Below, piece after piece: positions 4,305 to 62,879 of a DNA stretch of 64,000 nt. The first letter of the stretch is position 1; the number at the start of each line of letters is the position of its first letter. The notes under the pieces were generated by a model. It saw only the letters and a list, made by a program, of their open reading frames with translations. It ran no database searches and had not been told where the DNA came from. Location of the stretch: the NCBI GenBank assembly GCA_001972305.1, contig BDDD01002116.1:85489-149488 (forward strand), in the 5' to 3' direction. Both the position numbers and the translations under genes were made by a program. This DNA is from Cephalotus follicularis. Lineage: Eukaryota; Streptophyta; Magnoliopsida; Oxalidales; Cephalotaceae.

Positions 4305-4612
4305 CAGTCGGCTGCCCACCACTGGCAGTCGGCTGTCCCCCTCAAAATAGTCGGCTGCCAATCCCAGGAAGTCGGCTGCACGACCAGACAGTCGGCTGTC
4401 TACCAAGACAGTCGGCTGCCCGTACTCGACAGTCGGCTGCCATCCCTGACAGTCGGCTGTCCACACCCCCACAGTCGGCTGCCGACCTACGGCAGTCGAC
4501 TACACAACCTCTGCAGACATTTTTGGGAAACGAACGTGGGCAGTCGACTGGCCTCACCAGACAGTCGGCTGGACCCCCAGGCAGTCGACTGTCCAGGGTG
4601 GGCAGTCGGCTG
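4305..4612. repeat. Phased palindromic-word array, CAGTCGGCTG/CAGTCGACTG, 14 units
   Basis: Word starts are at 4305, 4326, 4348, 4369, 4389, 4409, 4430, 4450, 4472 and 4493, then 4541, 4562, 4582 and 4603. Steps are 20-22 bp except one gap of 48. The core is CAGTCGGCTG or the perfect palindrome CAGTCGACTG, with about 11 bp of unrelated spacer between words. Spacers are not conserved, so selection or homogenisation acts on word and spacing rather than on a whole 21-bp repeat unit. It lies in the nested solo LTR. Confidence 0.95.
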
Positions 4613-5130
4613 GATTCTGCAGCAGGTGTGAAAAACCAGCTGCTAAACAGCCTCAAACACAAAACCAACAAAACCCAAAATGACATATTTATGCACATAC
4701 ACGTTCCAAGCTCACAATATAACATAAACATGCATTTTATTTCATCAAAAACATTTACAATTGAAATTATGTTGCAAAAGTGACTTCCCCCTACCTTAGA
4801 ACTCCAAGTTAGGAGTTGCAATCCACCTCTTTAAGCTTAAATCCGAAGCTCTTGCAACCCCAACACGATCAGCCACCTTCAACAAGCCCGAAATCCCACT
4901 GCCAAGCCTCCAAACTTTCGGTTTCAACACAAACCTCACAAAGCCTCAACACACACACACACTTTCACTCTCAAACTCTTATGAATCACAAAGAAAGATG
5001 GAGGAAGAAGAGAGAAATGTTGTGTTTTAAGGAGAAAACCCGGCCCCCCATCTGCCAAATGCCATAACACCAAAAACACTCACCCATTTCTCATTTAAGG
5101 CAGAAAACGCGTGGGCTGTCTGACGCATGG

Positions 5131-5260
5131 CAGTCGACTGCCTTTCTTGGCAGTCGGCTGTTTCTGCCGACACTCCCACCAGTCGGCTGCCTCCTCACGG
5201 CAGTCGGCTGCCGTACCTCAGCAAGGGTCCAGTCGGCTGCCTCCCTGTGGCAGTCGGCTG
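5131..5260. repeat. Second phased CAGTCGGCTG cluster, 6 units
   Basis: Words start at 5131, 5151, 5180, 5201, 5230 and 5251, giving steps of 20, 29, 21, 29 and 21 bp. The first is the perfect palindrome CAGTCGACTG. The cluster is 140-270 bp inside the LTR 5' end on the minus strand, so it is probably in U3. A similar cluster occupies the same relative place in the plus-strand LTR at 61818. Confidence 0.93.
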
Positions 5261-5426
5261 CCCCTGCACCAAAAGCACACAAAACACACTTTATTGCAAC
5301 ATTTCAACACGGGAAAGAGGGAAAACACGATTCTCATTAACACAAGGTGTAAAATTACATTGGAAAGCAATATTACACATAAATGACAATCCCGGGCGTT
5401 ACACCCAGCTAGCATATATGGAATAT

Positions 5427-5438
5427 GCTCTGATACCA
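5427..5438 (-). other. Primer-binding site of the Tekay element (initiator Met tRNA)
   Basis: The minus strand reads TGGTATCAGAGC, the usual plant complement of the initiator Met-tRNA 3' end, three bases after the LTR end ...GTGTGACA. It marks the start of minus-strand cDNA synthesis and fixes 5442 as the LTR boundary. Confidence 0.92.
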
Positions 5439-5441
5439 TGC

Positions 5442-7568
5442 TGTCACACCCCGCTATTTCGGTTCACATTAAGACGAGCATATATAGTGATATCAGTATT
5501 AAACATACATTCCAGCATCTCATTCGATAAAAGGTATAACAATATGCGGAAGCAGTCAATAAGCCAGAATATATAAAAAATACAAGTCATCCGCATGCAT
5601 CCCATACTACGTGCGGGTACAAGTCAAAATTATCCTTAACATAAGGAATACAATCGTAACGAGGTATGATCCGTTCATTCATTACAATACATCATAAAAA
5701 TAACAACCTTGAAACGATAAACAGAAGCTCTCCAAGCTTCAGCAGCAAGCTCCGAAAGTCCTTGCTCAATCTGTAATTGTAGGGGTTAGCCGTTGTCCTC
5801 ACTTGGCTAAGTAGGAAGATAATGTATACAGAGGAATATATGAATGCAATATGTATGACAGTTTATATCAAAATAACATTTACATAGCCAATATAAGAGC
5901 AATCATTCCAAGTGGCCATAAACGGTTCATATGCAATAATACCGCACAAGGGTACAATCAATTAAATCAGTCGTTTGGGTGTCACATGTCACTAAATCCT
6001 AGCACCAACTGTGCACCACCTAACTATCACCCTATGCTCCGAGGATGATAGAAAAGGTAACATTTACTACCGGCGTTGGCGGGTAGTTTAACAGTACTTT
6101 CTGCAATTGCAGATAGTAGGTGATACTCTGGCCAACTCCTGGCATCCAGAATCACATCCATAGCCAGTGATATCCTCCATCACTCGACTATGGCAGTAAG
6201 CATAGACAATCAATTCAATCAGTACAATCAATAACAACATTGCATATATAATTAATATGCAATATCAAGTGTTTTCTTTAGAAAGATATATCAGTTCAGT
6301 AATCGTACATCTCATGTGAGGAAACGATATCAGTACAGTAGTGGTTTCCGGATGAGGAAACAAAACAGTAGGTACCTCTCATGTAGAAGGAAAAATCAGT
6401 AGTTATTGACATTAAGCGTTCTTTGAAAATGATAATAAATATCGTAATTTTGGTACAAAGACCATAAATGGTTTCAATCTTTGAAATTATCAGCAGTAGT
6501 GTTGTTAATAGCACCAATCAGTATGTATATACTAACATAAGTAGTATATGCAGTAACATTAAACAAAGCAGTAATTTTTATAACTCATACTTTCACTTGA
6601 AATGGTGTTTAAGCCATAAATTGTGCATATAGCACATAATTCGTTCGATCAGTGAAATATCAGTAGTAATGATGTTAACCAACATCAAACAGTATGTACC
6701 TTATAATGGTAACATATACAAATCAATAACAATGCGAAACAGTAGCAATTCAGTTGATGTTGTACAATTTCTGCCCAGAACAGTCGACTGCCCTCAAGAA
6801 CCAGCCGATTGTTGGGTTGAGTAGTCGACTGCTTTCAATGGCAGTCGACTGGTTTTGCCCAAAAATGCAGGCAGAACAGTTTATGTGTAGTGCAATTTAA
6901 TGCCAAATCAGTTCAATGCAAGTAGAAAGTAACATACATGAAATGCATGATCATATCTTCCAAAACATAACACTACCTCTACCTCAATTTGCTATCCCAA
7001 GATCAATTGTGTGATCTTTCTCTTTAAAGTTCCAAAGCCTTTTTCCAAGCTTTCTGCCAATAATTCTTTTAATCTCAGCAATTCAATCTATACATGCATG
7101 TTTATAGATACATGCAACAATAACAGAAGATTCAGTAACCACTTATAGACATTCCAATCAGTAGATCAAGTCATTAGTTCATTAATTTTATATCAACTCT
7201 CTTTTACCCCAAATTATGCACTTATCAATTTTATCAATCCATTGTCTCCTAAGTGGACAGTAGATGTGTAGTATATTCATAAGGAAATCAGTAGCTTATG
7301 GCAACTAACAACAACTTACTATCCAATTTGAGATTACAACCATTCCTGCACCAAGTGCTATATTCCATTTTAAATCCATAAATCCTAGAAGATGTTAACC
7401 AACCATGGTAGTAGAGATTAAGCATTCTCCTAGACCTTACTGTCAGATTATAACAACACGGGGAATTCGAATTCGAACTTACCAGGAATGTTCAAAGCTT
7501 CCCTTTTCCTTCTTTGAGCTCTACACCATCACATGCATTCCAATGCAAGCTCCAACAAACTCCCAGCT
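5442..7568 (-). mobile_element. 5' LTR of the Tekay element, truncated by SIRE insertion
   Basis: The minus-strand end ...GGGGTGTGACA abuts the primer site. The segment at 5775-5815 and the block at 6000-6120 recur, inverted, in the LTR at 12700-14675, which confirms the family. The LTR 5' end (TGTAA...) is missing because homology to the SIRE LTR begins at about 7569. It includes a short phased CAGTCGACTG array. No coding sequence was seen. Confidence 0.8.
6781..6851. repeat. Phased CAGTCGACTG array, 4 units
   Basis: Words start at 6781 (CAGTCGACTG), 6802 (CAGCCGATTG), 6822 (TAGTCGACTG) and 6842 (CAGTCGACTG), with steps of 21, 20 and 20 bp. The two variant words differ at positions where deamination of cytosine would be expected. 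Confidence 0.9.
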
Positions 7569-7876
7569 TCGTGATTGACCTCAATCACAAGACTTTGACC
7601 TCAAAGCCTTAGAGGATTCTCCTCTTTTGCAAGTAAAATGAAAGTGTTTACAAGAACCTCTTAAATAGGTTGATGTGAATAATTCAGCTCACAAAATGAA
7701 ACACTCAGACAATCTCAAAGAATAAAGCTTAGTAGCTTTGTAGAACAATAAAGAACACTTTGAGCTTTTTCACACAAGTATGCTTGAATTCTATCTCTCT
7801 TTTGATGTTGTGTAGATCTTGTTGAATTGATGTAGTTCAGTGTGTTTCTATATCTTCTTCTGAGGTTTCATGCTTC

Positions 7877-7884
7877 CTTTTATA
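7877..7884 (-). promoter_or_regulatory. TATA box of the SIRE LTR
   Basis: The minus strand reads GGCTATAAAAGGAAGC, a strong plant TATA box. The phased array lies 100-640 bp upstream, and the sequence is repeated in the second LTR piece near 12548. Confidence 0.75.
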
Positions 7885-7983
7885 GCCAGAAAAGATTTGT
7901 AGTCGTTGCATAATTTGTGGAAGCTTTTGATTTAATAATGTGTAGTTGCCATTATTGAATTTTGTCTCTGCTGGTATAAAGAT

Positions 7984-8522
7984 GTCGACTTCTTTTTAAA
8001 AGGCGTCGATGTCTTTTCAGTTGGTAGCCGTTGGAAGTGGTTGAACTAGCCGTTCCAGGCTTCCCAGGTTTTGTTCACTTAAAAAGACGTCGACTTCTTT
8101 TTAAAGGCGTCGATGTCTTTTCTGGGAAATCTCCAGAATATGAGTCTTTGAACATCACATCGACTTCTTCACTTGGAGTCGATGCATTTTCTGGGAATGG
8201 CAGGTACCTCTGAAAAAGGCGTCGATGTCTTTTATGTTGACGTCGATGTCTTTGATGTAGGGATCGATGTCTTCAATTGTAATTTCATACAGTAGCTTCT
8301 GGCACTTAAAACGTCGAAGTTATCTTGAAAGTAGTCGATGTCATCTTGAAAGTAGTCGATGTCTTTTGGAAGTAGTCGATGTCTTTTGGTACGAACGTCG
8401 ATGTCATTACTGGAAGTACGATGTCTTCTTTGTAATTGATCTTGCACTAAAGATGTCGATATTATTTGGAAGTAGTCGACTTCTTTCATACGGACGTCGA
8501 TGTTTTTCCTTGAAAGTCGATG
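7984..8522. repeat. Phased GTCGATGTC/GTCGACTTC array in SIRE U3, about 19 words
   Basis: GTCGA-type cores start at 7984, 8005, 8089, 8109, 8159, 8178, 8221, 8242, 8263, 8313, 8334, 8355, 8375, 8397, 8416, 8455, 8475, 8496 and 8516. Steps are mostly 19-22 bp, and the longer ones are 39-50 or 84 bp, close to multiples of the same unit. Words vary between AGTCGATGTC and the palindromic AAGTCGACTT. Confidence 0.92.
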
Positions 8523-9270: not shown

Positions 9271-10585
9271 TCATTCATCAGCAGGAGTGGTATCGGATTC
9301 GGATTCATCGCCCGAAGTCTCTTCACATCGATCAATGGTCTTGGATTCGGCAAGCTTCCGTTCCATCCTTTTGAGACGCCTCTTTGCGACTTTTAAATCG
9401 TAGAAGATGGTGTCATCAATGTGTTGGAAGTCAGACTGAATTACCCTATGATCACCCTCCAATCTACCAAGCCGAGTGTTGATTTGTTTGAATTCTTCTT
9501 TAAACGAGGATTGCATGGCAGCAAGTTGTGATTGCATGAACTCCATCATCCTGTCATAATCAGAAGTAGATGAAGTTCCTTGAGCTTGAGCCGGTGCTGG
9601 TGCAGCTTGTTGTTGAGCTTCCCATGGAGTATTCTCTTCTTTCTCTTCAATGGCAATCCTTGGGCCTTGATCCACTTTGGGAAAATATGTCCAAATCCCT
9701 TGTTGTTTCTTCCACCCCATTCGATTTAACGTACTCTTGTTGTATGTATCTTCTTTCTTCAACTTCGTTGCAATCTCTCCTTCGAGCTGAATATGACAAT
9801 GTAGGAAGACTTTGGTAAGAATGGATCCGAAAGGAAGTAAGAATTTCTTTTGTGAAAATGCTCTTACCATAGTCTTGAGCATTAGGAGAGGAAAACAGAA
9901 TTCGATTTTACAAAGGATGCACCACATAATAAAAACTTGCATCCTAGACAACTTAGCATACCCTCCACCGGTGGGTAAAATTTGATGAACAATGAGATGG
10001 TGGAGAAGCCTATGGTCTACTGACAATTTATTGGTGGTCAGTGCCATATTGGGATGCACATTTGGATCGTTGGGATATAAAATCGACAAAAATTTGGTTA
10101 GGGTGAAAACCCTCAACCTCCAGCCATTTCTTGTGTTCAAAAACGTATAGACCGGTGTATGGAATATGTAAGATAGAAGCTAGAATCCTAGCATCTAGAT
10201 AAATCCTTTGCCCTTTAACAGATGAGGAGATTGCAAATTCCTCATTTTGGGCCGAAACCATCTTTAGGTTAGAGTAAAATTCCTTAACCAATTTTATGTA
10301 AAATGGGTCAGAAATTTGAACTAGGGGAAGAAGATGGAGGTTGTCTAACCAGGAAACGAAGGAAAATTTGGAAGAACAGAAATCTAAATCAATGTTTATG
10401 CCTCCCATGACTCATTTTTCAACGAAAGATATAGTTCGAATAGGAATTTGTTCTTCGGATGAGGAATCCGATTGAGAAGACTCAGAAGAAGATTCCCTAA
10501 GCTCAAGCCTCTACTTCTTAGCAGATTTCTTAGGCTGAGATGTAGAGGCAGCCTTCTTTTTGGCAGTTTGCTTTGTCCTAGGCAT
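9271..10585 (-). pseudogene. Extra ORF of the SIRE-type element (plant transposon-domain protein with coiled coil and histone H3-like start)
   Basis: The frame opens at ATG 10585-10583 with MPRTKQTAKKKAAST and a basic and then serine/acid-rich leader. A TAG at 10511-10513 and a TGA just before MGGINIDLDF (10408) interrupt it. The middle part (MGGINIDLDFCSSKF... to EGFHPNQIF) and, after a frameshift near 10085, the part from about LTTNKLSVDHRLL to TYFPKVDQGP resemble the 'putative plant transposon protein' domain found in extra ORFs of plant elements. The C-terminus has a heptad-like coiled coil (MMEFMQSQLAAMQSSFKEEFKQ...KRMERKLAESK) and an acidic end. It occupies the place of the SIRE env-like ORF. 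Function is unknown; about 435 codons if unbroken. Confidence 0.72.
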
Positions 10586-10792: not shown

Positions 10793-11066
10793 GTCGACTT
10801 TTTATGAAGAAGTTGATTTTCTGAGCAAAAGACATCGACGTGATTCTAAAAGAAGTCGACGCATTCTTTAAAATAGAGCTGCAAAAACGGTGCGTTTTAA
10901 AAAGCATCGACGCGTTTGAAATGAAGTCGACGTGTTTCAGTGACACACACAGTGATCGACGTTTTTCAAAAGAGGTCGACATGATTTTCATAAATTACAA
11001 GTTTTCCAGAAAAGAAGTCGACTCTATTTTGTAAAGCATAAAAATTTCCAGAAAATGAGTCGACGT
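10793..11066. repeat. Internal phased GTCGAC array upstream of the SIRE extra ORF
   Basis: Cores start at 10793, 10812, 10834, 10855, 10906, 10926, 10955, 10975, 11017 and 11059. Steps are 19-22, 29, 42 or 51 bp. Words include AGGTCGACTT, AAGTCGACGC, CATCGACGCG and AGTCGACGTT. The array lies between the RNase H stop and the start of the extra ORF, 208-481 bp upstream of that ATG on the minus strand, and uses the same word family as the LTR array. Confidence 0.9.
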
Positions 11067-11175: not shown

Positions 11176-12219
11176 TCATTCAAGTTCACACAAACCTAAT
11201 TCTCTTCTAAACTTAGAAAAAGAATTCTCATCTAAGGGTTTGGTGAAGATATCCGCCACTTGTTTTTCGGTGGGAATATACTCTAACACAATGTCACCAC
11301 TTTCTACATGTTCTCTTAAGAAATGGTATCTAATGTCAATGTGTTTTGTCCTAGAGTGATGGACAGGGTTCTTAGCAAGGCAAATGCTACTAGTATTATC
11401 AGACTTAATAGATACATCCTTAACATAAATACCATAATCAACCAATTGTTGCTTTTGCCAAAGAATTTGAGCACAACAACTACCTACTGCTATATATTCA
11501 GCTTCAGTGGTGGATAAAGCTACTGAATTTTGCTTTTTGCTAAACCAAGATACTAGCATGCTTCCTAGGTATTGGCATGAACCACTAGTACTCTTGCGGT
11601 CTACTTTATAACCACCAAAATCGGCATCCGAGTAAGAATGTAAATCAAAACTAGAATCTCGGGAATACCATAAGCCTAAAGTAGGTGTGTATGTAAGATA
11701 TTTAAAAATCCTTTTGACAGCAAATAAATGGGATTATTTAGGATTGGATTGAAAACGGGCACACAAGCACACACTAAATAAAATATCGGGTCTACTTGCG
11801 GTTAAGTACAGTAAAGAACCTATCATGCTTCTATAAAGCTTTTGATCGATACATTTACCTTGTTCATCTTTGTCAAGCTTTGTAGAGGTACTCATCGGTG
11901 TCTTGCTCGTTTTAGCATTCTCCATCCCAAACTTCTTGAGAATATCCTTTGTATATTTCGTTTGGTTGATGAAGATCCCATCTTTATTTTGTGTGACTTG
12001 TAGTCCGTGAAAATAATTGAGTTCTCCCATTAAACTCATTTCAAATTCAGCTTTCATTGTATTTGAAAATTCCTTGCATAAAAAATCATTAGTAGATCCA
12101 AAAATAATATCATCAACATAAATTTGAACAATAAGTAAATCATTACCTTTGGATTTTGTAAAAAGAGTGATATCAACATTACCACGTTTAAAATCATTTT
12201 CAATTAAAAATTTTGTCAA
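11176..12219 (-). pseudogene. SIRE-type copia RT (C-terminal part) and RNase H
   Basis: RT retains the catalytic box as IVQIYVDDIIFGS, then GELNYFHGLQVTQ and GSLLYLTASRPDILFSVC. A TAA at 11734-11736 follows FQSNPK. The same frame then gives HLFAVKRIFKYL, SYSDADFGGYKVDRKSTSG, the RNase H acidic site ALSTTEAEYIA and SDNTSSICLAKNPVHHSRTK, ending [10 protein letters not shown]...LGLCELE. The N-terminal RT, integrase, protease and gag are absent: similarity stops at 12219, 14 bp from an LTR piece. Only one nonsense codon is seen in 348 codons, so decay is recent compared with the Tekay copy. Confidence 0.92.
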
Positions 12220-12232
12220 TCGTTACACCTCA

Positions 12233-12690
12233 CAAATTCGTGATTGACCTCAATCACAAGACTTTGACCTCAAAGCCTTAGAGGATTCTCCTCTTTTACA
12301 AGTAAAATGAAAGTGTTTACAAGAACCTCTTAAATAGGTTGATGTGAATAATTCAGCTCACAAAATGAAACACTCAGACAATCTCAAAGAATAAAGCTTA
12401 GTAGCTTTGTAGAACAATAAAGAACACTTTGAGATTTTTCACACAAGTATGCTTGAATTCTATCTCTCTTTTGATGTTTTGTAGATCTTGTTGAATTGAT
12501 GTAGTTCAGTGTGTTTCTATATCTTCTTCTGAGGTTTCATGCTTCCTTTTATAGCCAGAAAAGATTTGTAGCATTGCATAATTTGTGGAAGCTTTTGATT
12601 TAATAATGTGTAGTTGCCATTATTGAATTTTGTCTCTGCTGGTATAAAGACGTCGACTTCTTTGTAAAAGGCGTCGATGTCTTTTCGGTT
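12233..12690 (-). mobile_element. Truncated 5' LTR of the SIRE-type element
   Basis: It is nearly identical to 7569-8025, including the TATA region (near 12548) and the first two array words (GTCGACTTC, GTCGATGTC at 12650-12680). It lacks the rest of U3 and any primer site, so both flanks were deleted. Confidence 0.85.
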
Positions 12691-12699
12691 GGCAACCCT

Positions 12700-14675
12700 G
12701 AGTCACCACACCTGCAAAACAGAAAGAAGAGGAAGAAAACATGCATGAGTGAGAGAGGAGAGAAAAGTTTGGAACCTTGAGTTAATGACTAAAAATGGTT
12801 ACTGGAATACGATTCCTTGATAACAGATATTGTATGAGTGAATTTGAGTGTTAAAAACTTTGAAAGGAGAGAGAATCATCTGCTACTGTGTGCATGTGGA
12901 AATTGGAGTTCAAAGTGGGGTTAGAAAGCATGAAATCTAACTGGTAAGCTTCTGGTTTGATTTCGGTTTTGTTATAGTTATTTCAAATAGGTAGATGTGT
13001 ACTGAATTAGTTACCTATGCCTACTATTAACATGCACACTTAGATTAATTGTTGGATTGTTGCGGTTGATTGAAATTGGAAGTGTTTGGAACTCAAATAG
13101 AATAATCAATCCCAAATTGATTCTGGGATAGCGAATTGAGGTAGGAACTTTTACATGATTATGAAATATCATATCGTGTTGAGATTGTCTGTATTTGGTT
13201 ACATTTTGATTTGGAGTGAATTGAAACGTTATAAAGCATTGTGAACGATAATCTGGGCAAACGCAGTCGACTGTCTTGGATAACAGTCGACTACTAAATA
13301 TAAACAGCCGACTGTTAAGTGTAAATAGCCGACTACTCACGGTAACCAATCGACTATTCATAAGTAATAGCCGACTATGCAAGGAATCAGCCGACTGGTA
13401 ATGAAAACAGTCGATTGTTAAATGATATTATCACCACTGATAAGTACTGTTTAGGCTAAATGACCTGCAATTATACTAGCTTCAATAAGGGATGATTCCA
13501 ATAATCAACCCCTGCTATGTATAATCGAAATATCCGAAACCTAATGACTTATTCATTCTTGTGTGATGGAATAAATTGATATTGAGTGCACCGTGTAATG
13601 TTTGGTCTTTGCACTGCTAATGTATTGATGCAATTGCTACTGTATTGTTAGTTATAAAAGTATTTCATAAATACTATTGATCAAATGTTCTCCTAAAATA
13701 ATTGAAAGTGTTTCAAGTGATTCCAAAAGACAAGTGTTAAGTGTTCATGTGTTTTTCTCAATAATGAGAACCCGTGTTAAGTGTTATTTTGCCGTTGAGC
13801 AAATATCATTTTACTGTTTCAAAAGTGACTTATTGTTATCGTTTTCTCTACCAAGGAGAACTTATTATGTTACATTGCATTTATGTAATATCAGTGAATT
13901 GATTGTGATTGAAGTGATGTTCCTGGTTTAGTGATCGGAGTGTATCACCAACTACGGCGGTGAGCCTATGGGCCAGGAGTTTATGGCTAGTGCTTATACA
14001 CCAACTTATCTGCAATGCAGATCGTGAGTGAGTGATTGCCCACCAAGTGCCGACAATAGTGTTTACCCTTTCTATCATCATCGGAGTGCATGGTGGTAGT
14101 TGGGTGGTGCATCATTTGGGCTAGGAGATAGCATGAGATAACACCCACCAGTGGCCTTCGGACAAAGTGATTGATTGTCTGTACCCTTGTGCGGTATGAT
14201 TGATACGTGAATGAGTGTAGCCACTTGGCATGATTGTTTATATATTGTCATATATATATAAATTTTTTTAAAATGATAAACTATCATGCATGATTGCATC
14301 TTTATATTCATTGTCATGCATACTTCCTACTTAGCCAAGTGAGGACAACGGCTAATACCTACTATTTCAGATTGACGAAGTGAAGTGGAGTTGACTGCAG
14401 AAGCCGTTCTGCGAAGGGTTCTCTTTTTAAGGTTGTTAATGTTAATTTGTAATAATCATACTCCGTTATGTTATATTTACATTTCAGATGTGTAACATAT
14501 AACTTGTGTTGTACCTGTACGCATGTAGTATGGGCTACATGTGGAGATTTTAAATAATCTAGTATGTGAATGCCTTTGCAAGTTTTAAAGTTTTAATTGT
14601 CTTGGATTATTGTTAAATGCTGGATTATTAACTGATAACCATATATATGTTGTTAATGGAAAATGGGGTGTGACA
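12700..14675 (+). mobile_element. Tekay-type LTR in plus orientation, 5' truncated
   Basis: It ends ...AATGGGGTGTGACA at 14675, the family LTR terminus. The stretch 14326-14370 matches the inverse of 5770-5815, and 14040-14110 matches the inverse of 6000-6060. It therefore faces the LTR at 5442-7568 across the SIRE element. No start TGTAAC is visible near 12700. No coding sequence seen. Confidence 0.78.
13264..13417. repeat. Phased CAGTCGACTG/CAGCCGACTG array, 8 units
   Basis: Words start at 13264, 13284, 13305, 13326, 13347, 13368, 13388 and 13408, with steps 20, 21, 21, 21, 21, 20 and 20 bp. Variants include TAGCCGACTA and CAATCGACTA; the spacers are AT-rich and unrelated to each other. 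Confidence 0.94.
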
Positions 14676-14950: not shown

Positions 14951-15360
14951 GTGGAATTCCCATCACAATCCATCAATCAATTTAGTCAATCCATTTCCAA
15001 GTAGATTATAAGTTATAAAATACTTGAAAATAATACATTTTTTAAAATGTATAATCAGTCATTGAACAATATCCAATCCTTCGAAAATACTCATTTTCGT
15101 ATAACAATATTTCAATTGTTGAAACAACTTTTCAATCCTTCGGAAAATATACATTTCATGTAAAATGACAATTTATTTTAAATCATGTATGCATTTCCAA
15201 AATGATGAAACATTTTAGAAATCATAGGATAGTTCAATCTGTAGTTCAATCAACAGTTCAATTCATAACAGTATGCAATGCAAACATATATTCAAATGCA
15301 TCTAGGCTCATTTCGGGATCAATGTATGTCATCTAAGCAAAATCGTCCAAAATAGTGTCT

Positions 15361-15632
15361 TAAGCATCGATGCTTAACGCTTGACATCGACGCTTATGTC
15401 CTTTAAGCATCGACGCTTCCATTCTTAGCGTTAGCACTTAGTTCAGAAGCCTTACGTGTCAGCACTTGTCTTTGGCGTCGACGCTCAAGGAATGGACCCT
15501 TAAGCGTTGGCGCTTCAATCTTTGGCATCGACTCTCTGAGGTACGAACCTCAGATGTCAACGCGTCCAATCGCTCATCTTCTTTGCCTAAAAGTCCAAAG
15601 CATCGACGCTTATTCTTTAAGCGTCGATGGTT
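15361..15632. repeat. Phased AAGCGTCGACGCTT array, about 10 words
   Basis: The central TCGA positions are about 15367, 15387, 15410, 15431, 15459, 15478, 15507, 15528, 15557, 15603 and 15624. Steps are 19-23, 28-29 or 46 bp. Words are versions of the palindrome AAGCGTCGACGCTT, for example AAGCATCGATGCTT and AAGCATCGACGCTT. Confidence 0.9.
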
Positions 15633-16383
15633 TAAAGAATACTAGAGCGTCTCCTTCAACGCGTCTCACAATCAGTGGTTTTGCAAAACAATTCATACAT
15701 GCAAATAAATCCAATATCATCCCAAATCATAACATGCATGACAGGCTAACGAATTTCAGTGACCATGGCATCAATCATTCAGTCCACAATCCACAAAAGC
15801 CATGCAATCATCAATAATCAATCACTATTTTTGAAGTCAAAATTGCATGTATAAATCCCCTACCTTAGATTCAAAGTTAGGAATCGAAGTCCACCTCTTT
15901 CAGTCCACGGAAGAGTGTCGTTTTGAGCCTCCCAGTGGCTCCAAAACCTAGTCCAGCAACTGCAAGCTTCCAAGCTTTGCCCTTGTTCAACAATGGAGAA
16001 ATGTCCTCTCCTTTCTCTCTCTTTTTCCCCTGGTTTCTCACTATTTCTCTCTCCCATTCTTTCTGGTTCTTTTCCTTTCCTTTCCCTCTCAGTGGCGATT
16101 GAAGAAAAAGATGAGAGTGTGCGTTTTATGCACGTTTTTCTCTTTTTTTCTCTCACCCTCCTGCATGCGCCATGTGCATGATACCAGGATCTTCTCTTTC
16201 TCCTTCACCTGCTGCATGACACCCATGTGTCACTCTCTCTCTTTCACTTCAGTCACTGCAGGCTCATGTATCAGGGGTGCATGTTGGACACGCTATCTCT
16301 GGTGTGATAATGCGTCGAACAGTGGCCAAACCTGCCCCCATCACGTTCTCCTGACAGTGTTTAAATGTGTCTGATATTCATCT

Positions 16384-16500
16384 TTAAGCGGCGACGCTTA
16401 CTTCCTAGCGTCGACGCTTTCATCGGTTTGTTCATTGACGTAGACGCTTTGCATGCATGATTTTAAGTGCGCACTTGTATTCCTTGGCGTCGACGCTTAG
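16384..16500. repeat. Second AAGCGTCGACGCTT cluster in the same LTR, 5 words
   Basis: Centres are at about 16391, 16411, 16441, 16470 and 16490, with steps 20, 30, 29 and 20 bp. The layout, a small cluster near the LTR start and a large one about 750 bp further in, repeats that of the solo LTR at 3763-5403. Confidence 0.88.
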
Positions 16501-16657
16501 GGCTATTTTCAGCCTTTTAATTCAATATACTCCCCTTAACCTTTCTTGCTCAAACTTGCAACATTAACAATTGGAAAATCCATCATTTATCATTATTTAT
16601 GATAACTCTAAAATGAGAATTACAATAACACATTTAATGAAAATTTGGGGCATTACA

Positions 16658-18060
16658 ACTACGCGCATGTTTCATCTTATCGTTGGCGTTGATGCGAAGA
16701 TAGGTTGAGACACATGGTGTTGACGCCAAGAGGGCTGACACACGGGACTTACCAACTCAAGAGTAGTTGGTGAGTGAGAAAGGAGTGCTCTATAAGCCAA
16801 TGAGTGGACTTTGAGCATTTAATAAGTAAAAGTAAAAAAGTATAAATACTTTATGACAAAAAGACAAAAGGTCCAAGCTTCCATAACACACTTTCTCTCT
16901 CTCTCTCTCTCTCTCTCTTCCCTGCGGTGTATCTCTTCTTTCTGCTTCTTGCGTACACGTTGACGCCATACGCCAAGGTGTTGGAGCCTAAGTCGTCTGG
17001 TTCAAAAAGTAGCCATTTTCAACCCTCCATTCACCCCTCAAAGTTCATGATAGATGGAGATAACTTGTACACTGCATCTTATCTTTACCTAGGGTGATTT
17101 ATCTTACATTAAACACTTGGCCTTCAACCTTTAATCTTCCTTTTTCATGGCTTAAGGAGGATCCGTGGAGTTCTTGTGATAAAAGTGTAAAGGGAGCTAG
17201 ACTTGAAGGAAGGAGTCTTCACCCTTGGTAAGAATCTTTTCTCTCCTTCCTCTGTGGTTCCATGGCAGTGGGTTGTTGTTAGGGTGGGTGTACCCTAGCC
17301 AAACCTCCATGGTTTTCTTTTGTGGGAACCTAGAAACCCTTAGGGTTAGGGAAGCTAGGATTCGGGTTTTGGGGCTTATTAGCTAGGGTTTGTGTGTTGA
17401 CCTTGTGAGTTATTATTCAGCCCCTTTTGCTTAGGGTTTATGGCAACCCTATGATAAACCCGATTTTCCCCCATGCTTGGTTTTGGTTTCGGTTTGATTG
17501 ATTGTTTAATTAGGGTTCCTTGGCACTCATTAGGAAAATTTGGACATAGATTAGGGCATCCCATTTCTTGGGGATTAATCAATTGGATGAAATTTAAAAT
17601 TAATCGGCCCTAAACCTTAATGTACGAATTGGTTGTTGTTTTCCGATGCGCTTGAGCTCATTCCCAACACGGTGAGGTCCGACTTGCATGCAAGGAGGTT
17701 TGACGTCAACATTTAAGGTCTTATCTCGAAGCATTTGTGGTCTACAATTATAGAGCGAGGTCTGACCTTAAGCTCCCGTGGTCTGCTTACTTGCTTTCTG
17801 GTTTGACCTTAAGTCCTTGAGGTCTGACCTCAAGCGCCAAGGTCTGCATACTTGTTCTATGGTCCGACCTTAAACGATTGAGGTCTGACCTTAAGGGCCT
17901 GAGGTCTGACCTCAAGCGCTAAGGTCTGACTATATGCTCTATGGTCTGACCTTAAGCGCCTGAGGTCTAACCTCAAGCTCCAAGGTCTGACTACATACTA
18001 CGTGGTCTGACTTAAGGCGCCTGAGGTCTAACCTCAAGTGGAAAGGTCTGACTACATTGC
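16658..18060 (+). mobile_element. LTR-like fragment with TATA box, probably Tekay-related
   Basis: A TATA box (GTATAAATAC) lies near 16839 and a (TC)n tract at 16890-16918. A few GTTGACGCC words lie at 16683-16735 and 16968. A 19-word AGGTCTGACC array follows from 17675. There is no ORF of note. The structure (words, TATA, pyrimidine tract, leader, second array) parallels the Tekay LTRs, but neither terminus is clear, so family and ends are uncertain. Confidence 0.5.
17675..18052. repeat. Phased AGGTCTGACC array, 19 consecutive words
   Basis: GGTC/GGTT cores start at 17676, 17697, 17717, 17739, 17759, 17780, 17800, 17821, 17841, 17861, 17882, 17903, 17923, 17943, 17964, 17984, 18004, 18025 and 18045. 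The mean step is 20.5 bp with no gaps. The word AGGTC-T-GACCT is an interrupted palindrome and is often followed by TTAAGC or TCAAGC. It has no CpG at its centre, unlike the other words. Confidence 0.95.
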
Positions 18061-18062
18061 AT

Positions 18063-19851
18063 GTGACCATAACTTCCATAAAACTCAATCAATATAAGCT
18101 ATTTATATCATTTAAACAACTTACAAGCATCAATTAAGCTCTGATACCATTTCTTGGAATTGGTAGTGCATAGAAACACTAATAAAAATATCTCTCATGC
18201 AAATTAGGTTTCAAAAGTTCTACACAAAACCAATCATTCTCCAAGGATCATTGATGTTTTAATAAGTTGTTCACAAATATTATAAACTATTTCTAACAAT
18301 ATAAGCAGATTTGAACTTTCTGGATAGAGTCACTCCTTCCTTCAAGTTCCTCTCAGGTTCCAAGGCTAGCTTCCAAGTAGAGGAAGTCCTCTAAAGCTAT
18401 ACACACCAAGATGATCTCCTTTCTCCATCTTTTGGACGTGAGAGAAACTTTTTCTCTTCTTCTTTCTTCTCCAACATTTTGGATCACCAGATGAAAACCC
18501 TTTTTCTTCTTCTCTCTACTTTCTCAAAGTCGGCTGGCATTAATGAGAAGTGATCTTCTCTTTTGTCTTATGCTAGTAAGTACCATTAAGGATCATTAAT
18601 GAATAAGATAAGATTTCAATAATATCTTCCTTCACTACTTAACTCTTAAGTAATATAGACATAGTCATTAGTAGATATTAATGTCTCATGAAATCATCTT
18701 ATGATTTCTATCACGCTTTATAGGAGATCAACACTTGTATTATGTGTGACTCTTTAGGTTCATAATTACGCTGGCCGTAAAATTAAATTGTAATTCTCGT
18801 AATCAATTAATTAAACATTTTTCATCATATGACAACACTTTAATTAACATTTCAAATTAAAACTCTTCTAATCCTTTTTCATCCAAGGTAGGTTATCAAT
18901 CTACCTCAGGCATTCTACTGATCAGCATCGACATCTAGCAATGCATACTGACCCTCAGGTAATGTGAATTTTCCTTGAACCATAATATGTAGGTTTGTGC
19001 ATGTTTAATCCTTCCATCGTCAATACTCTAATTAAACCTAGGGTATGGATTACGTCAAACCCTAATAGTTCAATTAATCGGTACCTTGATACAATGTCAT
19101 TGGCCCTATCAAATTAGAGGTGCCCTCTAATATGAACCAGTGATATCAGAACATTTTTTTCATATCACTGCTCTTACCCTGTCCAGGGATTTTCTGCCAA
19201 TGACCAATAAATATAAGCATATTTCTCTTTTACTGGGAGCGATGGATCCAATCTTGCTCACTCACTCATCTCTGCCATAAAGCTGCCATACCCAACTAAT
19301 GCCCATATACCCCCCATGGTTAGGAGACGTATGTGAGCACTATCAAAGCATATCATATTATGCACAGATTACAAGTGATGGCTCATGTCCACGGACCACT
19401 ATTGCATTGCTACCTTTAGGAATGTCCGTTTTACGTACAGTAAAAATTCCATTCGAGCATTCCTTATTGCGAGTCTGCTTCAGTGAATTCATTCACCCAC
19501 GTGCATTGCCCTTGTCTCCACAAAATGACTTATGAGATCAGTCACCCTCTAAACGAGCTAGCATACTATGTGCTGGTCTTAATGGATTAAGCATGCCCTG
19601 AGTAATTAATCCTTCAACTAGGAAGATTTAAGAATAAAGCTTACCGAGGTTCCAATTCTCATTTCTGGATCTCATCAAGAATTTGGTTCCTCCAGCTTTA
19701 ATCTTAGGACATTCAAATATCCATACTCATGTTAATATGATAAATGAACTCATAGCCATTTATAACAAATTATACATTTTATTGAATATTATTAAAGATA
19801 AGTTTACATATTACAATATATGGAAACTTCTTACAGGACTTATCTCTAACA
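18063..19851 (-). mobile_element. Copia-type LTR with primer site and short leader
   Basis: On the minus strand an LTR starts TGTTAGAGATAAGTCC at 19851 and ends ...CCAATTCCA at 18155. It is followed after a 5-bp spacer by the primer site TGGTATCAGAGC (18138-18149) and about 75 bp of leader. The LTR is about 1.7 kb and no coding region remains. Its 5' edge abuts a Tat gag fragment, so it inserted there or was joined by deletion. No target duplication could be confirmed. Confidence 0.72.
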
Positions 19852-20075
19852 CTTTGCTGGCAAACAATTTGGCCAGCCAGAATCAATTTGGACCAAGCCG
19901 ACCAGCCCACGAACAACAATAGCCTCTAGTTCACCAAGAGGCCAGACGAAACCTGCAAAGGGGGACCAGGTGACCTCCAAGGCGGTCAGAGATTGATACA
20001 TCTCTGAGAGCAGAGTCCTTAAGTGCAAGGGATTATAATTACAATCCCCAGCATGACCTATCAGAGCAAGATTCT

Positions 20076-20830: not shown

Positions 20831-20894
20831 AAGAACTCTAATCATCTGATCAATGTGGTGCAAGGAAAAAATGAATCCCTCAGAGACTACAACA

Positions 20895-21110
20895 AGGCGC
20901 CCTCCAAGGTGGTCAGAGATTGATACATCTTTGAAAGCAAAGGATGTGGTGCGAGAGGTGGAGAAAGAGGAACTGATTACGTTCCTCAAAGATAATAAAG
21001 ATGTATTCGCCTGGTCTGTAGAAGAGGTCTCGGGGATCAACCCTGAGATAATGTTTCACAAACCTAATGTAAATCCAACGCGGCCCCCGACCAGGCAGAA
21101 GATAAAAGAC
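20895..21110 (+). pseudogene. Remnant of the region just before Tat RT
   Basis: It reads LKDNKDVFAWSVEEVSGINP and NPTRPPTRQK, the segment that precedes RT palm motifs in Tat elements. It is joined directly to gag on one side and to tandem repeats on the other, so protease and most of pol are deleted. The left junction reuses the sequence AAGGTGGTCAGAGATTGATA, also found near the gag start (19978), which suggests repair through microhomology. Confidence 0.68.
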
Positions 21111-49900: not shown

Positions 49901-52900
49901 CCAAGGAATGAGCAAAAGAAGGATGCAAATTGAAGGCTAGGAGAGGAAGCTCTTGGATTCCAAGTAGGATCTGCCTCCTACTCAGCCTTTATCGCCTGTG
50001 TGTATTGCTATAAATGTTTTAATGCTTGCTTGGGTTAGAGTTAAACAACGAAATAAAAGGAGTAGAATGATTGAGAAATGTAGAGATCCTCTGCACTAGA
50101 TTTAATGAACCCTATGTCCTTATGTTGAGATGGCATCATCTGCCATTCCATGCATATTATAAACACTATACACAAATATAGGGTAGTGCCTAGTATGCTT
50201 CCCGTGCGCACTGGCGTAGCTCTCCTCTGCCCGCCTCCTGGGCGTCCATACATGCCCAGCTCGCTAATGCCAGGCGCAGAGGAGATTAGTGGCGGGGGTA
50301 CCGTGCCTGAGCATGCAATGCCAGCTAATGCCATCCTCCGTCATGCATCTGAGCCAGTCGTTACCTGCCTTTAGCCGAGATGGCTTTACGCCGAGGATCC
50401 ATGTGCGAGGTGCCATACACTGGAGCACTGCATGTAACGCCGAGGATCCCTGTGCGAGGTGCCATGCACTGGAGCACTGCATGTAACGCCGAGGATCCCT
50501 GTGCGAGGTGCCATCCACTGGAGCACTGCATGTAACGCCGAGGATCTCTGTGCGAGGTGCCATACACTGGAGCACTGCATGTAACGCTGAGGATCCATGT
50601 GCGAGGTGCCATACACTGGAGCACTGCATGTGACGTCGAGGATCCATGTGCGAGGTGCTACACACTGGAGCGTTGCATGTATTTTGCTTTCTTCTGTGCC
50701 ATACATGCCCGTCGAAGACGACTAGAGCATGCATCTCTCGCTGGCCTAAAGCCGAGTCACCCTGTGAACGCCGAGGAGCCAACCATGGCTTCCTCTGCCA
50801 TGCGTCCTACGCATGCGTCTGGGGACTCGCAGCCGAGGACGCGCCAGTACCGCACCTCTTTGCGTCTGGCATGCTATGTGTTTCGTGTATGCCGACAGGG
50901 CGTCGGGCCTTTCCCTGCTATGCCTGCCGAGCCCCCCATCCTCTGTTTTAGTGCCTAGCTTCCCATAGCGATCGTGTCTGACCAGATGGCGCCATGATGA
51001 GAGCTCTCTTCTTCCCTATGAGTTCGTCCTCTACCCTGAGAGCTCTCCCTTGCCCTATAGCGCCACTCATGTGAGATCATCCTCTGCCATGCGTCCCGCA
51101 GGCATCGAGGACAACTGCCGAGGGCGCACTGGAGCCTTACACCGAGGTGCCACGCGTCGTCCCATGGTAGGTACCCGAGGATGCGCTACAGCTCCCATGC
51201 ACGCACCAAATGGTCCTCTGCCATGCGCCCATTGCATGCGAGCTCACCTCTGTTCTCCTCTGCCTCGGCAAGTTTCCTTCTCACATGCATGCGTCCAGAG
51301 AATGTGTATATAGCGCCCAGATAGTGCTACGCATGTAATGCCGAGCTCGCTTCAGTAAGTTCCTTGGCATGCTATGCATGCGCTAAGATGACAATGCATT
51401 GGTTACATACACCATAAAAGTGACTAAGTGAAATGGATAAGAAATAAGTGCAATAAATGGCGTTAGTGTATAATTGATAAGTGCAGAGAGTTGTGTTAAT
51501 TGATAAATGATAAGTGCAGATAGATGTTATTAATATAAGAATGATAAGTGCTATATATATGGATGATAAATGTGGTGTAAATGTAGGGTAGTATAGTATT
51601 ATAAAGGCAGACCCCAAATGTATTGTTAATGTAGTGTAATGTTAATGTAGTGTAGTGTTAATGTACTGTACTATGCCTGATCACCAATTGAGATGAGCTG
51701 ACTGATCACCGATTGAGATGAGCCCTCAGATCACTAATTGAGATGAGCCGGCAAGGCTATTTTTGAGATGAGCCTACGGGATCACCGAGATAACTCAATG
51801 GATCACCGATCGAGATGAGCCGTCGACTCACCAAATGAGGTGAACCGACTGAACACCGACCGAGATGAGCCACACAGACTGTTACTGTTAATGTTATTGT
51901 ATAGTGTACTGAATGACTGTTACTGATACTGTATAATGTTTAGGTTCCTCTCCTCTGCCTTTAACGTCTAGAGCGTGTATATCGCTCTTCCTAAAGCCGA
52001 GGAACCCGAGGAATCGGTCTGCCTACAATGTAATGTTTATTCCCGACCCGGCTCCTCTGCCTTAACGTTTGGAGTGCGTTATCGATCCTCCTTTAGTAGG
52101 GGATGCCGAGGAAGGATTCATTGTGACTGTTAATGATTGCGAATGACTGTTTGTGACTGTAATGACTGAATGAACCATTACACTGATCGCACCGTACTGT
52201 TAATAACTGTACTGAATGAATCGTATTGTGCACTGAATGGATTGTACTGTTATATTGCATCTCATTTGCATTACATATGCTTGCTGCATCTACATTTCAT
52301 AAATGCATGGTGGTAGTTCCTACACGACCAGTGGTCGCTGACCCATTGCATTGTCATGTAATGGGTTAGGTACAGGTGGAGCTTTGCAGCAAGCTGAGGA
52401 TTGAAGCCCCGGGTGAGTCTCCTCCCTTTTATTGCAGTTCGACGATCCACAAGCATAAGAATATTGTATTTTTGACCTGCCGGCTTGTGGCAGAGCTATA
52501 TGTTGACTGTATTGTATGACATTGGGTTTTTATCCACGTAAGTGATGTTTTATTGGACTGTTCCACATGCATTATTATATTGTTAAATGTTTTAAATTTC
52601 CGCTGAATATTGGATAATGAATGATACTGTTAGTAGCGCGTTAAACTTTGAGGGTTGACCCTTGGAGTTTGGGGCGTTCCATGGTTATTTCTGACAAATG
52701 GATCCTTGATCGAGATGATCACCAAGGGAGGGCTAGAACCATTATGGAAAAGGTATTGGATGATTTGTGGTGGGATTCAATAGATTATATACATTCCTTT
52801 ACGTCTCTAATCTATGATATGATAAGATTTTGTGATACCGACAAGCCTTCTCTCCACTTGGTGTATGACATGTGGGATATGATGATTGAAAAGGTGAAAA

Positions 52901-55900
52901 AAACTATATATTATCATGAAGTGAAAATGGTGCATGAGGAGTCTCCTTTTTTTCAAGTAGTTCATGAAATTCTTATAGATCGTTGGAACAAGAACAATAC
53001 TCTCACTTCATTGTTTGGCACATGCCTTGAATCCAAAGTAAGTTTTCCATACTTTATGTATTAAATCTTTTTACCATATAATATCTCTTATAATATTAAT
53101 AGCTTTTAATTTTGTATATCTTTTTTATAATAAGGTATTATAGTGAGCAATGGCTTACTGAAGATCCCACTAGAGTTCCTCCTCACAAGGATATGAAGAT
53201 CAATCAAGAAAGAACCAAACGCATTAGGAAATATTTTCCTAACTTTGAGGAGCGCAACAAAGTGAATATGGAGTATGCGGAATTTGTTGGCAAGAATGGA
53301 GATTTTAGGGATTTCAATTCAATTGAAAATCGGTATGCTATGGATCCCAAGGCTTGGTGGGTTCTTCATGGAGCATGTGCACCTATGCTTCAAACCATAG
53401 CCTTAAGGCTTCTGACACAACCTTCTTCTTCATCATGTGCCGAGAGGAATTGGAGTACTTATTCCTTTGTGCATTCGATGAAACGAAACAAGATGACACC
53501 CAAACGTGCTGAAGACTTGGTTTACATTCATAGCAACCTTCGTCTTCTTTCGAGAAAGAGTCCACAATATGCACAAGGAGAGACAAAAATGTGGGATATT
53601 GGCGGAGATGCATTTGACTCACTGGAAGATATTGGACTGCTTGAAGTTGCAAGTCTCTCACTTAATGAACCGGAGATGGAGTCCATTGTTTTGTTACATG
53701 AAGTTGATGATCCATCCGATGAAGGTCATGAAGATATTAACTTTGATGAAGTTTAGTTTATTAGATGGTTTTATGTTGTGACACTTGTGACTTGTGAATC
53801 CTATTATGGATTCTCTTTATGACATTCTTAATTACATGTTGGAATGCTAGCCTTTTTATTAGTTATGTGTGTTACTTAATTTGTTAATTAAAATATATGA
53901 ATGGATGATGAACTTTTTTTATTTAAATTCATTCTAAGGTTTTTATATTGAATATTGACATATTGATATAAATTATATTTAAAAATTTTAAAAAAAATCA
54001 TATTAAATATACGTGTCGGAATCCTAATTTTTTTAAAAATGTCGTGTCGACGTGTCGTGTCGTGTCTCGTGTCGCATGTCGGTGCTTCATAGATTATGAT
54101 TACTACTTTATTATTTTAGTATATTAATCAATATATTACATTATTTAAGTAGTGTTATTAATATCATTTTAATTAGTATACTTATATTATTATATTAAAT
54201 AATTGTTGGAAATAATGATGGAAATAATAATATAAATGATACTTGATTATATGAATTTCTATACTAAATATACGTGTCCTAACGGTCTTAATTCTAATTT
54301 TTTTAGAAATGTCGTGTCAACGTATTGTGTCGTGTCGTATTACGTGTCACGTGTCAGTCTCAGTCTCAGTCTCAATGACGTTCATTTTCTGTAACTCAGT
54401 GTGAAGGCAGGAAACCTAGAAGACGAAGCAGAGTTCTTTATACAAAAAACCTAGTCAATATACTTCTTCTAAACCACCCACACTAACCTCCAATTCTTTA
54501 ATATCATCCATATTCCATAAATAATAACCAAAGATTAAACATAACCTAATAAAAGAAAACTCCACAGACCAATTACAGACTGGCCACTAGGTATACAATA
54601 AGGGAAATTTATCTTATTTAGGAAAATTAGGATAAATTATGTCCATCCTTATTTTTCTCCAGTTCAATCATCGATAAAGAATAATCAGATGAATGAAAAT
54701 AGTACCAAGCAACATTACAATGCTTTAACTGACTAAGCTTTAATAAAAATAATGGTCCAGTCATTATAATAAAATATATGTATGTGTGTATGTGCGGGTG
54801 TGCGGGTGTGTGTGTGGGTGTCAATATGGATATTTTCATTTATAAAATTGAACTGTTAACAATGTTTTATAATAGTGGTAAACACATGCAAAATAAATTT
54901 CAACAAAATCGATAATAAAATTTAATGATTTCCTTTAACCACGTTACCCAATTAATAATAGTAATAAATCTGAAAAGGTAATCATGAACATCGGAATGGG
55001 CCCAAATAAAACTACACCGAGCGTCAGTTTCACAGTAGTTGTGTCAGCTATTTGAATCCTCCTCGATTCCGTTATGTCCAAAGCGCTCTTTGTGAGTTCT
55101 TCTAAGAATTTATTATTATTATTATTATTATTTGTATCCATATATTTTTTTAATCTATTTTACCTTTTTTATCTTGATCCTTCCATGTGAACTGCATATA
55201 ACGAAACCACCTTATACGATCTTAAGTTAACTTATTTTCAAATAGAGTTAACTGTAGTGTCCTATGAAGGTATTCATTTGTTAATGAACTTTTTCCTAGT
55301 ATTACCATAGATCAAACATAACATCCTACTTTAGATTTATTTTTCTTTTGTTATGTTTTTTTTTTTTGTTTTTTTTTTTTTGTGAAAATGCTATTTTGTT
55401 AATCACTCAATATTCTGCACCATAAAGAATCAGTACCTAATAGTCTGTAAATTTGTGCCTTCAATTTAGTGAGTATGCTACATTAAATTAGTGGGTATAC
55501 TACATTAATATTTTATAGAAGATGTCAGTCACACTTCTTTCATATTACATAGCTCCAATCATAGGTATAAAGTCCTCATTGATCTGTCCAACCATCTTGA
55601 TTCGATCCAAGATACTGAAAAAGGTCACTCTAGTATACATCTTCCATTTTGAATTAAATATACCAAAATTTTCTCCCCAATAGTGCTAAAATTGTACTCC
55701 AGATTCGGTCTTAGTAATACTTTGCCTAAATCTCTTAGACGCTAAAGTATTTGCAACTAACATACAACAAGAAATAGCATACTGAATATTCCTAGTCAAC
55801 TCATCCACAACCATAGCTTGGTTCAGCCAAAGTAAAAAACCAAAAAACAGAAGGCAAAAGTAATCACCTGTTCACTGACAAGAATTAAGCTCAGCATAGG

Positions 55901-61619: not shown

Positions 61620-61770
61620 CTGAAGCACCATTAACATTCTTCAATGACCAAGTTCGAAACCAACAGCTCCAAAGAAAGAAACCAGCATATACGAAAGAAG
61701 TTTATTACTAAATTCAAATTCAAATTACCAAGAAAATAAATACAAAATAATATAGAAGGATCCACGCCAC

Positions 61771-61800
61771 AACAACAACAACAACAACAATAATAATAAG
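61771..61800. repeat. (CAA)n(TAA)n microsatellite
   Basis: About seven CAA units followed by four AAT units, just before the Tekay LTR. Confidence 0.9.
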
Positions 61801-61817
61801 GAAAATCCCAAGATGGC

Positions 61818-62879
61818 TGTAACGCCCGGGATTTTCATATGTTGTATTTTCACGATGTAAATGTACTTTTATTGTGAAATTAATAAAATGACTGATTTCC
61901 CGACTTTGATGACGTTTTCCTTTTTATATAATGTTGTTTTCAGTTATGTAATGTTAACGAACGTTGAAGTATATCACTTGAAATGATGGGTTGAATTTCA
62001 GAAGAAATAGGCCCAAATAGCCGACTGTTTTGTAGGAACAGCCGACTGAATGGTTATATGGGGGCGGCCGACTGTTTGTGGAAACATTCGACTGGACGGC
62101 CTCGCACTGCCAGCCGACTGTTGGGTAAGAACAGCCGTCTGGATGACACTCTGTCAGCAAACACGTGAAGTGATCACATGCAACAGCTGACAGGAAAGAT
62201 GTGGGGCGACACCTGGGAGTCATGCGGCTCATGCAGGGAAAAGAGACAGCACCTGCATGCTATCCAGATCGAATCTGAGGCAGAACTTGACATGTGGTAT
62301 ATGAGAGTTGCCAAAGTGGGAAGAAAATGGCACATGGACATGCAAAATCGGGCAGGAGAAAGGGGAGAGAATCCAGCTGCTTAAAGCTTCCCTCTTTACC
62401 CCATCTGCCGAGCTATTGAAACCAGAGAGGAACTGTGATTTTGGAAGGGAAGAAAACAGTGTAGTGAGGGGGAAACAGGAGAAGTCTTGTGAGAAAAAGA
62501 GGGAGAACCTTGCCTCCTCTGTTGAACCAAGCAAAGCTAGGACTTGGAGCTTGAACCTGGACTTGCAAACCAGACTTGGGAAGCTTGGAGGAGCTACTTT
62601 TCGGACTAAAAGAGGTGGACTTACAGATTCCTAACTTGGAATCAAAAGGTAGGGAAGCTATACTTGTATTTTGAGCTCAAAGTTACTGGATGTTCTGTGA
62701 TTGAATGCCTGGTTGTATGAACTGTTGTGTTTGACTTTAGGTCATGCTTACTGTTGACTTTATCTGCCATGCCTACTGTTCGGAATCAAATGAGATTATG
62801 CACGAGCATGTTGAGTTTAATCATGGTGTTGATTTGCTTGATGACATGCATGTTAAATGTGGTGTTATATGGACGATAT
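61818..62879 (+). mobile_element. Tekay-type LTR, plus orientation, cut by copia insertion
   Basis: It starts TGTAACGCCCGGGATTTTC, matching the start of the solo LTR at 3763-5403 (minus strand). TCCTAACTTGGAATCAAAAG then GTAGGG (62627-62650) matches the family block at 4790-4830. It is interrupted at 62880; the rest should lie beyond the window. It sits in the exportin-7 intron upstream of the first visible exon. Confidence 0.85.
62018..62141. repeat. Phased CAGCCGACTG array, 6 units
   Basis: Words start at 62018, 62039, 62065, 62085, 62111 and 62132, with steps 21, 26, 20, 26 and 21 bp. CAGCCGACTG is the reverse complement of CAGTCGGCTG, so the word keeps its orientation relative to the LTR. 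The cluster is 200-325 bp from the LTR start, like 5131-5260 in its relative. Confidence 0.92.

Follow-up and report, generated by a model that had tools for sequence, protein, structure and literature searches.

What could place short, near-palindromic words at almost constant steps in retrotransposons of different families? This question is raised by a 64,000-nucleotide stretch of the Cephalotus follicularis genome (assembly GCA_001972305.1, contig BDDD01002116.1, forward-strand positions 85,489 to 149,488; hereafter the window), in which ten arrays of such words, W1 to W10, had been flagged earlier from the letters alone. Their steps of about 20–21 bp equal two turns of B-DNA, and the original prediction read them as sites for a dimeric protein bound repeatedly to one face of the helix. 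We confirmed that the arrays occur far above chance. In our reading, which we hold to be probable, they are cis-regulatory multi-site platforms of long terminal repeat (LTR) retrotransposons, comparable in kind to the RM boxes of Sireviruses, and are read by a factor that acts in trans and is probably encoded by the host.

Near-palindromic words were present in all ten arrays (14, 6, 4, 17, 9, 8, 8, 16, 11 and 6 words in W1 to W10, respectively, against means of 0.05–0.86 in 200 letter shuffles), and 64 of the 89 steps between neighbouring words measured 20–23 bp, which bears out the description of short near-palindromic words at steps of about 20–21 bp. Several arrays consisted of pairs or runs at 20–22 bp linked by looser steps. 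A word-agnostic finder returned 10 arrays in the window and 20 random 10-kb stretches taken together, whereas five block shuffles yielded none. Each of the ten seed words was centred on CG in a YCGR context, and one of these arrays, at locus L008, was loosely spaced (steps 19, 55, 59 and 42). Among 64 hexamer palindromes, GTCGAC showed by far the largest excess at lags of 20–21 bp (14 vs. 1.33 from other lags). Neighbouring RYCGAC/GTCGRY words lay 19–22 bp apart 43 times in the 20 random stretches, four of which read N in parts, cf. 0.66 in shuffles, and at least one such step was found in 9 of the 20.

Genome-wide counts in the assembly (1.577 Gb, 9,746 contigs) covered CAGTCGACT...AGTCGACT pairs, AGTCGACT pairs at 20 bp and GGTCTGACC pairs. 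At steps of 12–42 bp there were 118,303 forward and 124,422 reverse CAGTCGACT...AGTCGACT pairs (356 and 352 for the reversed-pattern control), and AGTCGACT pairs at exactly 20 bp numbered 24,432 per strand vs. 94 for the reversed pattern. The first 100 CAGTCGACT...AGTCGACT steps listed, from places that lie in the first contigs and include related copies, grouped at 19–22 bp (77 steps: one of 19, 17 of 20, 51 of 21 and eight of 22), 27–28 bp (14: four and ten) and 41–42 bp (nine: four and five). Genome-wide, steps of 12–17 bp accounted for 69 pairs (control 0) and steps of 29–39 bp for 3,986 (control 12); in the first 100 rows of the latter class, many of which are one site read on both strands, the steps were 29 (54), 30 (4), 31 (28), 32 (6), 33 (3), 34 (1) and 39 bp (4). 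Strict whole-turn phasing on one face of the helix was rejected on account of the 14 steps of 27–28 bp among the first 100 listed, despite the presence of 31-bp steps as well; because steps of 27–29 bp (2.6–2.8 turns) recur, helical phase is not absolute. Coding tandem repeats were also rejected, since mixed steps of 20, 21 and 22 bp break the reading frame.

Words and spacing look constrained, and the letters of the spacers drift. In an alignment of 15 LTR copies of one Ty3/gypsy family, X (12 of them chosen through the exact word pair, with those words masked), identity was 0.78 in words, 0.58 in spacers and 0.63 in flanks (bootstrap word minus spacer 0.09–0.30). Two unascertained pairs of copies gave 0.91, 0.43 and 0.51 (E1/E3) and 0.90, 0.48 and 0.52 (E3/L018) for words, spacers and flanks, respectively. 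Homologous spacers, compared in units with both words aligned and in pairs that are not independent of one another, were equal in length in 252 of 311 comparisons and differed by at least 2 bp in none. In the flanks, length between 6-mer anchors was equal in 152 of 275 comparisons, and 34 were apart by at least 2 bp; this anchored control was added because a 12-column flank control leaned on alignment gaps. Copies of X also differed by whole units of 21 or 42 bp, as recombination between words would give. Within arrays, inner-spacer identity was 0.319 vs. 0.282 when shuffled; with W8 excepted, the whole-unit alignment of a minisatellite was not seen, 22 of 29 arrays being without inner-spacer similarity at p ≤ 0.05. 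The spacers, described originally as unrelated, are so in most arrays; seven of the 29 depart from this at p ≤ 0.05, and W8 contains a 61/82-bp higher-order duplication. Unit-wise duplication had been dismissed on the same ground, and that dismissal is not supported as it stood, since copies differ by 21- or 42-bp units and some spacers are related.

Orienting 27 arrays by LTR, primer-binding site (PBS) or pol gave 190 words read in element sense, of which 99 were AGTCGACT and 64 were AGCCGACT. The change T3-to-C was found 68 times vs. two for its mirror, A6-to-G, counts that do not stand for 70 independent events because the words share ancestry; other mirrored changes were few and without the same one-sidedness (G2-to-A 4, C7-to-T 8). 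The site is therefore polar and reads AGYCGACT in element sense, RYCGAC being kept in 166 of the 190 words in sense and in 104 in antisense. With a polar site, the perfect palindrome that a dimer was thought to require is unnecessary.

The word CAGYCGACTG is common to the gypsy families X and Y and to the copia loci L041 and L042. These two loci are homologous to each other over 2.26 kb at 71%, a stretch that spans the reverse transcriptase (RT) and the array; the array follows pol, a position at which the related copia element E2 has RTCGAC-type words. Outer word bases changed in concert in a further group of LTRs, Z, seven copies of which a tree separates into two groups with a split support of 0.99. 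Among classified word flanks, in either array, CA/TG was absent from the three GC-type copies and GC/GC from the four CA-type copies. The outer flanks agreed between both arrays of one LTR in all six two-array copies; in the E7 copy one array was read. Both groups retain the core and a good part of the step grid, and the copia LTR array W9 also has GC-type words, in degenerate form. The shared word, the concerted flanks and the GC-type words of W9 lead us to favour a factor acting across families. Tentatively, and as something possible rather than probable, gypsy and copia elements of one plant may rely on a common lattice of spaced binding sites, recognised by cooperative factors from one or two families, in what are probably tens of thousands of arrays; related LTRs would change the outer word bases at every site and leave the core and a good part of the grid intact, as if tracking or escaping a shift in the specificity of the factor.

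In the mechanism that we propose, each word would be a putative binding site, built around RYCGAC/GTCGAC except in W8 and, in part, W9. Sites 20–22 bp apart, less often 27–29 or 31 bp, would let bound proteins touch each other or a common partner, and the spacer letters would be free. Binding to these platforms would be cooperative, and the trans-acting factor that reads them would drive transcription from the LTR and perhaps that of a third open reading frame (ORF) in copia elements. A host-encoded factor is preferred because gypsy and copia use the same word. We infer protein binding, host encoding, activation and the identity of the factor from these patterns. Repeated binding of a sequence-specific factor, as originally suggested, is the best reading, with words kept, spacer length held and a word shared by gypsy and copia; strict one-face phasing and the dimer palindrome drop out of it. 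The leading named candidates are CBF/DREB-type AP2/ERF proteins, put first because of PLACE motifs given in the available text of PMC9138379 and PMC4222965: CRTDREHVCBF2 (GTCGAC, the preferred sequence of HvCBF2), CBFHV (RYCGAC) and DRECRTCOREAT (RCCGAC). The match is one of motif identity only, with a core of this kind in the 166 of 190 sense words noted above, and this identification seems to us rather unlikely. The arrays resemble CRT/DRE sites in what would be the core of all of them but W8 and most of W9. They differ in that those are single promoter sites, without two-turn arrays in the tables of these two articles. PMC8656106 makes no mention of DREB, GTCGAC or CCGAC.

Several observations weigh against a cooperative platform of this kind. 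The 27–29 bp step class corresponds to no whole number of turns. The close unascertained pair E1/L018 showed little contrast (words 0.91, spacers 0.86, flanks 0.84), and conservation failed at one of the six word positions aligned in X (0.59). The X copies in the constraint test came mostly from the exact word-pair search, and the spacer-length test is confined to units with both words aligned, in non-independent pairs. RYCGAC is mostly antisense in W5 and in the GC arrays of group Z, sparse in W9 and absent from W8, so that neither one factor nor one orientation fits all arrays.

The arrays might instead be ordinary 20–21 bp minisatellites made by unit duplication, with decayed spacers, a spacing that is a relic and words that have no function. 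Copies that differ by whole 21- or 42-bp units, the spacer similarity kept in 7 of 29 arrays, the double units of 50 and 47 bp repeated in W2 and W10, and W8 with its 61/82-bp blocks, 13-bp steps and spacers that seem similar genome-wide would all suit such an origin. Decay, however, should wear down words as fast as spacers in diverged copies and should not hold spacer length within 1 bp (differences of at least 2 bp in 0 of 311), and it should fill steps of 12–17 bp, where only 69 of 118,303 pairs fell; arrays about 1 kb apart also share word flanks. We consider this origin improbable. W8 itself is more like an ordinary 20–21 bp minisatellite, because GGTCTGACC pairs are rare genome-wide (337 forward, control 0), steps of 13 and 33–34 bp occur among them, and their spacers seem to resemble one another.

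Nor is it much more credible that the arrays are targets of an element-encoded anti-silencing protein, as VANC is for VANDAL transposons, with word and protein changing together. Same-orientation words that differ in concert between related LTRs are like VANC motifs, and a third ORF is found in copia E2 and in copia locus L009, yet the same word is used by gypsy and copia. No VANC-like ORF was identified, in an analysis that did not include a search for VANC itself; a tblastn query with the third ORF matched copia loci only, two of 45 (L009 and, weakly, L041), among loci that are mostly short pieces around arrays, in which an element gene could be missed. The least likely of the alternatives is that the words act in RNA, where they would pair with one another and the resulting hairpins would serve packaging or the production of small RNAs. 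Folds were more stable than shuffles on 18 of 18 strands (nine arrays, both strands, W10 left out; z −2.1 to −12.0), and the available text of PMC10760457 reports that small RNAs map to the palindrome clusters of maize Sireviruses. The common sense variant AGCCGACU, however, spoils word–word pairing, and the variant that would keep such pairing through G–U is nearly absent (68 vs. 2); antisense folds much better than sense in W1, W4 and W6, the reverse holds in W3 and W7, and hairpins do not need narrow step classes. An RNA role, which the original prediction had offered as its alternative, is thereby weakened, even though all folds beat shuffles.

The original prediction knew of no description of such a pattern, but the RM boxes of Sireviruses are a close precedent. 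In the available text of PMC2829016 (Bousios et al. 2010), which deals with 13 Ty1/copia Sireviruses, RM boxes are short palindromic words, 8–32 copies per element, with diverged flanks; they cluster in LTRs, where they precede the TATA box, and ahead of the extra ORF (ENV) that follows pol. A CGG-CCG signature is present in all but Tnd-1, and no binding factor could be named. Outside its references, and figures and supplements apart, that text has no mention of helical, periodic or interval spacing or of 20 bp. The arrays studied here resemble RM boxes in their palindromic (dyad) words, in copy number and perhaps partly in position, although the dyad is imperfect; the RM-box level of at least eight words per element is reached (4 to 17 words per array, 20 in the Y LTR), and, in the text available, the published CGGTCTGACCG is near the W8 word and the published CGGTCGACCG has a GTCGAC core. 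They lack a CGG-CCG core, having instead CAGYCGACTG, GCRTCGACGC and RTCGAC types and AGGTCTGACCT, and the carriers Y and X are Ty3/gypsy, unlike Sireviruses. What is added to RM boxes is the Ty3/gypsy carriers, the strict step classes, the polarity, the word common to gypsy and copia, and the concerted word flanks.

Other known systems share some of these traits. PMC10760457, as far as its text is available, cites Bousios 2016 for palindrome clusters that define a cis-regulatory region of the Sirevirus LTR; unlike the arrays here, those clusters were studied as small-RNA hotspots and hairpins. In the accessible parts of PMC5735166 and PMC10398659, VANC21 and VANC6 motifs are dense, non-coding and in the same orientation, the motifs of related families differ, and units diverge together. 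The arrays here likewise have same-orientation motifs that differ in concert between related elements, whereas VANC targets lie in DNA transposons, in tandem repeats, have an element-encoded binder that was demonstrated and, in those parts, no stated fixed step. SIRC of Arabidopsis thaliana, in the available text of PMC10342631, are short direct repeats broken by unrelated DNA and common in mobile elements. They differ in having 2–8 repeats of 10–29 bp, about 57% without palindromes, and no common word or fixed step is stated there. In the open-licence literature searched, as far as its text was accessible, we found no gypsy LTR described with words arrayed at two-turn steps.

The LTR of Ty3/gypsy element Y (3763–5403, reverse strand; 1.64 kb) was delimited by its termini (sense start TGTAACGCCC, end GGGTGTGACA), by homology to L022 and by gag about 70 bp beyond it; no PBS was recognised behind it and no partner LTR was seen. 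The gag, protease and RT/RNaseH frames of Y (685–3690, reverse) match Pfam Retrotrans_gag, RVP_2, RVT_1 and RT_RNaseH. W1 (4305–4612, reverse; 14 CAGYCGACTG words in sense, steps 20–22 and one 48) and W2 (5131–5260, reverse; 6 such words, steps 20, 29, 21, 29 and 21) supply the 20 words of this LTR, and a position in a gypsy leader was rejected for both, as termini and L022 homology place them in the LTR. The X LTR (5441–7560, reverse) ends with GGGGTGTGACA, followed at 5427–5438 by the PBS-like TGGTATCAGAGC; its 5' part is cut by E2. It holds W3 (6781–6851, reverse; 4 words, steps 21, 20 and 20), and X copies adjoin gypsy pol in L001, L014 and L044. W6 (13264–13417, forward; 8 words, steps 20–21) belongs to E3, an X-type LTR whose end is at 14675. 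X-type LTRs also have a second array, with array starts about 1.0–1.3 kb apart in L018, L027, L030, L031, L032, L036 and L037. TATA-like words were found downstream of W1 and W3.

Group Z is probably gypsy, because its termini match those of element Y. Its LTR E4 (14958–16664, reverse), of the GC/GC word clade, was placed by homology to L020 and L022, with termini from L020 and the alignment. It contains W7 as array 1 (15361–15632, reverse; 8 GCRTCGACGC words) and a second array of the same GC/GC word type that was absent from the earlier list (16388–16497, reverse). W10 (62018–62141, forward; 6 words, steps 21, 26, 20, 26 and 21) belongs to the CA/TG clade of the same group. At L020:300–2896 a group Z LTR-like stretch breaks a gypsy RT frame (RT ends at 311 and resumes at 2897), as a solo LTR would. 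The proposal that the arrays lie within LTRs holds for W1, W2, W3, W6 and W9, with W7 and W10 in LTR-like copies, and fails for W5, W8 and most of W4.

In copia E2, the terminal repeat at 7568–8024 (reverse) is 98.2% identical to 12237–12692. W4 (7984–8522, reverse) has 17 GACRTCGACGTC-type words, the first two within the 456-bp repeat and the others beside it, so that most of the array precedes the terminal repeat. The third ORF (9271–10411, reverse, two frames) is PF20167-like at 30.5 and 37.4 bits, under the cut-off of 45, and sits between W5 and W4. W5 (10793–11066, reverse; 9 RTCGAC-type words) comes after copia pol, between this ORF and an RT fragment at 11734–12222 (reverse; Pfam RVT_2, 1.5e-22). 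Arrays thus stand between copia pol and third ORF in E2 and, by a weak tblastn match, in L041 (third ORF at L041:659–916, E 9e-5, the weak match being the only one). A PF20167 (Transposase_32) match above cut-off was found in the third ORF of L009 (L009:7069–7956). The LTR that holds W9 (38258–38620, forward; 11 degenerate GCGYCGACGC words) shares homology with the terminal repeats of L009. W8 (17675–18052, reverse; 16 AGGTCTGACCT words) lies about 90 bp beyond a PBS-like TGGTATCAGAGC at 18138–18149.

Elsewhere in the window, direct repeats at 19949–24194 and 26228–31269 (pieces 75–86% identical, about 2 kb between) each hold 78–100 bp units with the palindrome CTCCCAAGGGAG and units of about 178 bp, and may be very long LTRs. 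A short copia fragment with RVT_2 (43001–45496) has 124-bp end repeats at 97% and a PBS-like word at 45361. Remnants of hAT transposons occur at 48708–49073 and 53103–53756 (DUF659 and hAT C-terminal dimerisation region), and a 49-bp tandem repeat of six copies (93% matches) at 50388–50681.

For the biology of these elements, strict steps, a RYCGAC core, polar words and a word common to gypsy and copia turn the search for the binding factor into a testable question: which factor it is, whether it cooperates at 20–22 bp, and whether several families exploit a single host factor. With some 10^5 site pairs in the genome, the arrays could titrate a host factor or place responsive enhancers close to genes.

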